From Natronococcus sp. CG52 (GTDB taxonomy: Archaea > Halobacteriota > Halobacteria > Halobacteriales > Natrialbaceae): 64,000 nucleotides of DNA. How positions within the stretch are numbered: position 1 is the first letter of the stretch; every line of letters begins with the position of its first letter. Made by a program: the position numbers and the translations under genes. The notes below the pieces were generated by a model. It did no database searches. It had not been told where the DNA came from and worked only from the letters and a program-made list of their open reading frames with translations. The stretch spans positions 1,736,001 to 1,800,000 of the forward strand of contig NZ_CP099391.1 of assembly GCF_023913515.1 (NCBI RefSeq). The letters are read 5' to 3'. Positions 47,102-47,504 of this stretch are shown piece by piece.

Positions 47102-47149
47102 GCCAAACCGCAGACTATTCATACGCCTTTCTCGAACGATCACATGCGT

Positions 47150-47232
47150 GCGAGGGTAGCCAAGCGGCCAACGGCGGCGGACTCAAGATCCGCTCTCGTA
47201 GGAGTTCGTGGGTTCGATTCCCTCCCCTCGCA
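47150..47232 (+). tRNA. tRNA-Leu (anticodon CAA)
   Basis: An 83-nt class II tRNA. Acceptor stem GCGAGGG pairs with CCCTCGC, with discriminator A as expected for Leu. The anticodon stem GCGGA/TCCGC encloses the loop CTCAAGA (anticodon CAA). A long variable arm (TCTCGTAGGAG) and a T loop TTCGATT follow. There is no intron. The T-stem has one mismatch. CCA is not encoded. Its last 22 nt are repeated downstream (see att-like repeat). Confidence 0.93.
47211..47232 (+). repeat. tRNA-Leu 3' end, first copy of 22-nt att-like direct repeat
   Basis: This covers part of the T arm and the 3' acceptor strand of tRNA-Leu. The identical 22 nt recur at 47323-47344, as expected where a tRNA-targeting integrase acted. 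Confidence 0.65.
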
Positions 47233-47322
47233 TTGCAGTGAGGCGCATCCCGCGCCGAACGAAAATGCACGGAGGGATCGAATGACGCCGGGGTTCTGCG
47301 CGAAGCGCAGGTTCCCGGTGGT

Positions 47323-47344
47323 GGTTCGATTCCCTCCCCTCGCA
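47323..47344 (+). repeat. second copy of the 22-nt tRNA-Leu 3' end (att-like)
   Basis: An exact copy of 47211-47232 not belonging to any tRNA. The 90 bp between the copies hold no gene; hairpins CTGCGC/GCGCAG (between) and GGCAAGAG/CTCTTGCC (after) flank it. Confidence 0.65.
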
Positions 47345-47504
47345 CTGGCAACCAGTGCGGCAAGAGAGCACCTCTTGCCCTCGCAAACTTCTCCGACACG
47401 CTCACTCTCGAGCGACGGCTCCCGGACTCGAGTCGCCGACGCCGACGATCGGTCACTGACACGAAACGTGACACCTTTTGACGCCGGCCCCCTCAGGCTG
47501 GGCA

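Follow-up and report, generated by a model that had tools for sequence, protein, structure and literature searches.

Two-hairpin units bounded by repeated tRNA tails recur downstream of tRNA genes in Halobacteria

Why is the 3' end of a tRNA gene repeated a short distance downstream, outside any tRNA? The question is raised by the tRNA-Leu(CAA) gene in a 64,000-nucleotide stretch of Natronococcus sp. CG52 (contig NZ_CP099391.1, positions 1,736,001 to 1,800,000), hereafter the window. The gene lies at 47150-47232 on the plus strand, as located by ARAGORN (47149-47233), Rfam RF00005 (51.5 bits) and the repeat. Its last 22 nt (GGTTCGATTCCCTCCCCTCGCA, 47211-47232), which comprise the T-loop, the 3' strand of the T-stem and the 3' strand of the acceptor stem, recur at 47323-47344. 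The two copies are identical over 22 nt and agree at 24 of 25 positions over 25 nt, and they stand 112 bp apart from start to start, with 90 bp between them. A preliminary description gave these coordinates correctly and read the repeat as the scar of a lost element or as a tandem attachment site still open to capture, a reading that many copies of the 22-mer elsewhere in the genome were expected to refute. Perfect copies number exactly two in the whole 4.74-Mb genome. The next-best matches are four, with 3 mismatches each, and three of these are the tail of another tRNA-Leu, standing in tandem at C1:438011, 438115 and 438232. Chance is ruled out for an exact 22-mer repeat at a distance of 112 bp.

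The second tail copy is followed by the native trailer of tRNA-Leu(CAA) (47345-47392, plus strand), which contains two small hairpins and ends with CCTCGCAAACTTCT. This trailer has the same architecture in all ~30 genera examined and directly follows the tRNA where the intervening unit is absent. In six genomes of the same genus (G001-G004, G006 and G007), the trailer (CTGGCAACCAG...CCCTCGCAAACTTCT) begins immediately after the tRNA; it is the sequence that stands after the second tail copy in the window. Therefore, the 112 bp are a precise presence/absence difference, and positions 47233-47344 are an insertion relative to the empty site. The unit is present at the orthologous tRNA-Leu(CAA) in other genera; at 80-92% identity, the window's unit is shared by G005, a member of this genus, and by several further genera. 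The second tail copy lies 96-113 bp downstream in 11 of ~36 genomes of the family, at 169, 223, 257/367, 1080 (degenerate) or 2599 bp in others, and is absent from ~20. The same spacing is thus found in part of the relatives and not in all, as a refutation of the preliminary reading would have had it, and an island does occur at the locus in one of them (see below).

Several further observations were made at this locus. In all ~30 genera, and in two sequence versions, the trailer closes with CCTCGCA, which duplicates the acceptor end and could pair with the 5' strand of the tRNA. In G008, the trailer and a decayed unit of type Y are separated by 1 kb of inserted DNA that includes an HD-domain gene (L038:1910-2467). 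Two loci (L028 and L020) contain a second tRNA-Leu 3' half, from the anticodon stem onwards, ~300 nt or less downstream of tRNA-Leu(CAA). A Z-like unit sits in the variable arm of this half, joined at another GG|TTCG, and its T-loop in L020 holds an X unit as well, with only TTCGA duplicated.

The 112-bp unit (47233-47344, plus strand, type Y) was delimited between the tRNA and the trailer by its fold and by an alignment of 7 genera. It consists of two hairpins, H1 followed by H2, with a predicted folding energy of -87.9 kcal/mol (z -6.8), so that the 90 bp between the tail copies are structured as well as recurrent at other sites. H1 (47234-47269) is built of TGCA/TGCA, GT/AC and GGCGC/GCGCC stems, which flank an invariant tandem G.A/A.G (GA at 47240-47241 and GA at 47257-47258). 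Across 7 species, 5 of the 7 inner H1 pairs are altered on both sides while 100% of cells remain paired, and over 35 pairs in seven genomes 95.9% are standard, vs 31-53% for slid versions of the pairing. H2 begins with a 5' arm (GGAGGGATCGAA, 47271-47282) complementary to the T-arm part of the tail; the arm is one base short, leaving a bulge on the tail-copy side. Its inner stem (47283-47322) is GCCGGGGTTCTGCGC-GAA-GCGCAGGTTCCCGG plus internal loops and belongs to a family found at other tRNAs. The second tail copy (47323-47344) closes the unit: the T-arm part of the copy serves as the 3' arm of H2, and its acceptor part is left unpaired. A kink-turn or H/ACA identity for H1 was dropped because its 2x2 tandem G.A loop is symmetric and has no 3-nt bulge. 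Searches of Rfam 15 gave no structured RNA family above the gathering score, the tRNA itself being the sole match.

The same organisation is found at other tRNA genes of the genome. We scored 45 tRNA genes for a copy of their own tail, requiring at least 16 of 21 matches within 300 nt downstream, and 22 carry one. The remaining genes score at background (13 or less), and three of them show visible degenerate units. As a control, tails of other tRNAs reach 16 of 21 or more in the same flanks in 4.1% of comparisons. tRNA-Leu(UAA) at C1:437949 is followed by two further exact copies of its own tail, 104 and 117 bp apart, which mark two units in tandem; the feature at tRNA-Leu(CAA) is therefore real and not unique. 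The inner stems of H2 fall into a few families, X, Y, Z and W. The X stem reads GAATCAGGGAG...CGACCGTGGTTC and covaries around a fixed tandem G.A, and the Y stem reads CCGAGGTTCTGC...GCAGGTTCTCGG. We note that a tRNA-Pro(CGG) gene at ~606900 of G000:C1 (L132), followed by an X unit, was missed by the Rfam tRNA search.

Orthologous tRNA genes differ in their units within the genus. The first tRNA-Gly(GCC) gene of G000 has no unit, while that of G004 has one Y and that of G002 two Y units. tRNA-Trp(CCA) is followed by Y in G006 and by X then Y in G005; tRNA-Leu(UAA) by X then Y in G000 and only by Y in G001 and G003; and tRNA-Ser(UGA) by X in G000 and by Y in G007 and G008. As an alternative to movement, such presence and absence could reflect old insertions lost by deletion between the repeats. 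We also considered that the newest unit enters next to the tRNA. Copy identity gives no support to this order, since in tandem units the copy closer to the tRNA sequence is the proximal one in 2 cases and the distal one in 3, and the copies are equal in 3.

Exact sequence patterns of the inner stems were used to follow the family more widely; these patterns under-count units. In the GTDB genome set, at least 120 stretches contain the X pattern, and all matches listed are haloarchaeal. In an even sample of the phylum, it was found in 37 of ~80 Halobacteriales genomes and in 0 of ~310 other genomes, and its reversed-pattern control gave zero matches throughout. Among 82 fetched X matches, 74 follow a tRNA gene of the same strand at a distance of 35-296 nt, with 28 kinds of tRNA represented. 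Of the eight exceptions, five or six are tRNA tails cut by the end of the locus or missed by the finder, and two are a protein-gene site described below. Similarly, 30 of 31 Y matches lie downstream of tRNA genes, within 600 nt. Of the T-loop, the X pattern requires only TTC and the Y pattern nothing, which means that the association with tRNA genes is not built into the search. Some Haloferax species carry units; Haloferax elongans and H. larsenii, for example, have X at tRNA-Glu(CUC). Unit numbers vary strongly between genera, from 12 X matches in G024 to none in several genomes of g8 (compare G015).

Neither the X nor the Y pattern occurs in IMG/VR, and searches of phage and plasmid collections for X gave only a weak 36-nt match, in an Aeromonas phage; the window sequence has no match in the phage collection. 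The single plasmid match is a 987-kb Natrinema replicon. The Z pattern has two matches in viral contigs, with no adjoining tRNA or tail copy, and these look like chance. We therefore rejected an attP carried by a virus or plasmid as the source of the units, given the absence of X and Y from IMG/VR.

An island of the kind that the preliminary description proposed to seek does exist at tRNA-Leu(CAA). In G001, two copies of the tail plus trailer bracket a 2.6-kb island containing a Phage_integrase gene (PF00589, 4.7e-16; PHROG 216, 6.3e-25) that encodes a tyrosine recombinase in a 230-aa open frame (L037:3458-4150, minus strand). The 3' end of tRNA-Leu(CAA) is thus a real attachment site, and tRNA 3' ends are common targets of archaeal integrases (PMC8371274). 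The right end of the island, however, has no H1/H2 hairpin unit; islands and units thus use this tRNA end separately. A direct repeat of the tRNA 3' end does flank inserted DNA at tRNA-Leu(CAA), as at an attachment site, but the DNA between the repeats is a 90-bp recurrent hairpin unit rather than an integrase-bearing element or a derivative of one. The preliminary description was right that an insertion took place, given the six empty sites in the genus; it did not take the form of a lost island, as the 112 bp are a defined two-hairpin element. Nor is it an open tandem attachment site, as the unit recurs at 22 of 45 tRNA genes, in other genera and class-wide. The unit's recurrence, its absence from the G001 island and the absence of X and Y from viral contigs largely refute the scar or empty site of a tyrosine-integrase element as an explanation of the 112-bp unit, and we give this reading very little credence. 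A lost-island scar was rejected on the same-genus empty sites, the recurrence at many tRNAs and the G001 island without a unit.

Each unit matches the tRNA next to which it stands. In the acceptor part, beyond the T-loop, the tail copy agrees with its own tRNA at 0.82, compared with 0.45 for permuted tRNAs. The H2 arm equals its own T-arm at 47 of 58 positions that are off consensus, and equals the consensus at none. Complementarity of the arm covers the T-loop and T-stem, falls to background over the acceptor part and rises again at the start of H1. The repeated tail runs mostly from TTC and usually ends near the tRNA 3' end; its length is 16-33 nt in 64 of 74 units, and in the 10 with shorter values it is interrupted by small insertions or mismatches. 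The right junction is constant (G|TTC), and the left one is loose, at varying distances of 16-33 nt downstream. Where the copy and the tRNA differ, the arm sides with the tRNA by 32 to 2. We did not adopt selection on arm pairing, or pairing with the tRNA, to account for this, because most of these differences are 1-nt insertions in the copy. Tail copies of different tRNAs and lineages often have a one-base insertion in the T-loop (TTCACAATCC, TTCAACATCC and TTCATAATCC; L149, L162, L177, L178, L187, L191, L192, L213, L293, L310, L312, L315 and L316). In the tRNA-Gly(GCC) units of G002, one outer strand of H1 repeats the sequence that natively flanks the gene in G000 (TTCTCCGAACA) and the other is its reverse complement; part of H1 is therefore an inverted copy of the target too. 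Compared with MITEs, the units have inverted arms that match the host tRNA rather than a terminal sequence common to the family, the search for a parent transposon being non-exhaustive.

Taken together, we lean, with modest confidence, towards reading the family as small non-coding palindromic elements of ~100-110 bp with two hairpins, which insert at tRNA T-loops (G|TTCRA) in Halobacteria and are probably mobile but non-autonomous. More tentatively, the element may tailor itself to its target: a conserved pair of hairpin cores would copy a T-loop-like target once directly and once inverted, thereby rebuilding both the recognition hairpin and the tRNA end.

Two lineages, G011 and G024, extend these observations to a protein gene, where X arrays stand at the 3' end of a gene for a 119-aa protein, presumably of OB-fold type from the impression of its sequence. 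Natronorubrum texcoconense (L140, L258) has two tandem X units ending this gene, a tandem array stands at this gene in G024 too, and G027 has a remnant of H1 there, whereas no unit was found at this 3' end in ~25 other genomes read; the arrays were recorded at L258, L261 and L259. The last codons, CGGTTCGAACCGGTCTGA (YRFEPV stop), form a T-loop-like palindrome outside any tRNA gene, and the tail copy and arm of the units match this target. Thus, target-tailored insertion at a T-loop-like site is not limited to tRNA genes. These arrays also bear on whether replication errors alone, by template switching at tRNA hairpins, made the direct and inverted tail duplications with no mobile element involved. 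Such errors would fit the layout of the unit (tail, flank, loop, inverted flank, inverted T-arm, inner stem, tail), the mirrored flank of the Gly(GCC) units and the loose left junction. They are insufficient by themselves to explain why a few conserved inner-stem families are common to different tRNAs, genera and families, and the protein-gene arrays point to transfer of an inner stem to a new site; we consider this explanation improbable.

For a mobile element of this kind, insertion would depend on a putative enzyme supplied in trans, by the host or by another element, and acting on folded single-stranded DNA or on T-arm dyads. With the right junction set at G|TTC and the left one loose, insertion would duplicate the tRNA tail and leave the tRNA whole. 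The inverted target copies in the arms hint at fold-back synthesis during insertion, and recombination between the direct repeats could then delete units precisely or multiply them in tandem. Against this reading, the analysis turned up neither an encoded enzyme nor an autonomous relative. A target-primed retroelement was rejected, as reverse transcriptase (PF00078) occurs in 1 of 61 genomes and not in the window's genome.

The units may instead serve the host. A class-wide family with covarying stems that persists within genera may be kept for a host function, for example as a structured tRNA trailer in which H1 and H2, transcribed together with the tRNA, would help 3' processing, termination or regulation. 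In favour, the stems covary, H1 and type-X H2 each have an invariant tandem G.A, every genus examined has a structured native Leu(CAA) trailer, and 59 of 60 units have a better predicted RNA fold on the tRNA coding strand than on its complement. Yet the stems are near-perfect Watson-Crick palindromes that show no wobble preference under symmetric scoring, with 1 G.T vs 3 A.C mismatches in H1 and 11 vs 16 in the outer stem. The strand asymmetry may therefore come mostly from the fixed G.A motif, and we do not claim RNA-level structure from it. Half of the tRNAs have no unit, orthologous tRNAs differ within the genus, and a unit also follows a protein gene, all of which argue against a trailer function. 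We consider this reading, under which units would pass down by descent, spread from one tRNA gene to another by recombination and at times be lost, unlikely.

To our knowledge, a target-templated, tRNA-parasitic class of element has no described counterpart. Integron attC sites are imperfect hairpins with a G|TT junction and a variable terminal stem, and form tandem arrays behind a fixed first site. The units share this hairpin anatomy, junction and tandem arrangement by analogy only; no IntI or cassette gene was identified for them, and each unit repeats the tRNA tail. Among described haloarchaeal elements, the closest are the palindrome-associated transposable elements (PATEs) and small mobile repeats (SMRs) of Haloquadratum, which are likewise short, non-coding and palindromic and are mobilised in trans (PMC3119063). 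Like PATEs, which derive from IS200/IS605, the units have palindromes near their termini and are too short for a transposase. PATEs and A-type SMRs, however, have no target duplications, and PATEs occupy scattered sites (PMC3119063), whereas the units stand at tRNA T-loops, flanked by target repeats (16-33 nt in 64 of 74), with arms that match the target. Tyrosine-integrase elements of the SNJ2, pT26-2 and SSV types also target the tRNA 3' end, leaving the tRNA whole and a direct repeat of its tail (PMC8371274); the units differ in having no integrase or cargo, a size of ~110 bp, arms tailored to each tRNA and the same hairpins at many different tRNAs. Mitochondrial double-hairpin elements, as far as they can be compared by their description, are also small hairpin elements that spread in compact genomes, but of unrelated organisms (PMC2800124). 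The family is best filed as an undescribed variant of small palindromic elements; no description of such a family was found in the open-access full-text literature (PMC).

If mobile, the units would be parasites of tRNA ends whose insertion chemistry writes the target into their own structure. If functional, they would represent a layer of tRNA trailer biology unreported in the open-access literature searched. Where short tRNA-tail repeats in haloarchaea are read as scars of lost viruses, hairpin units of this kind are needed as the null explanation.
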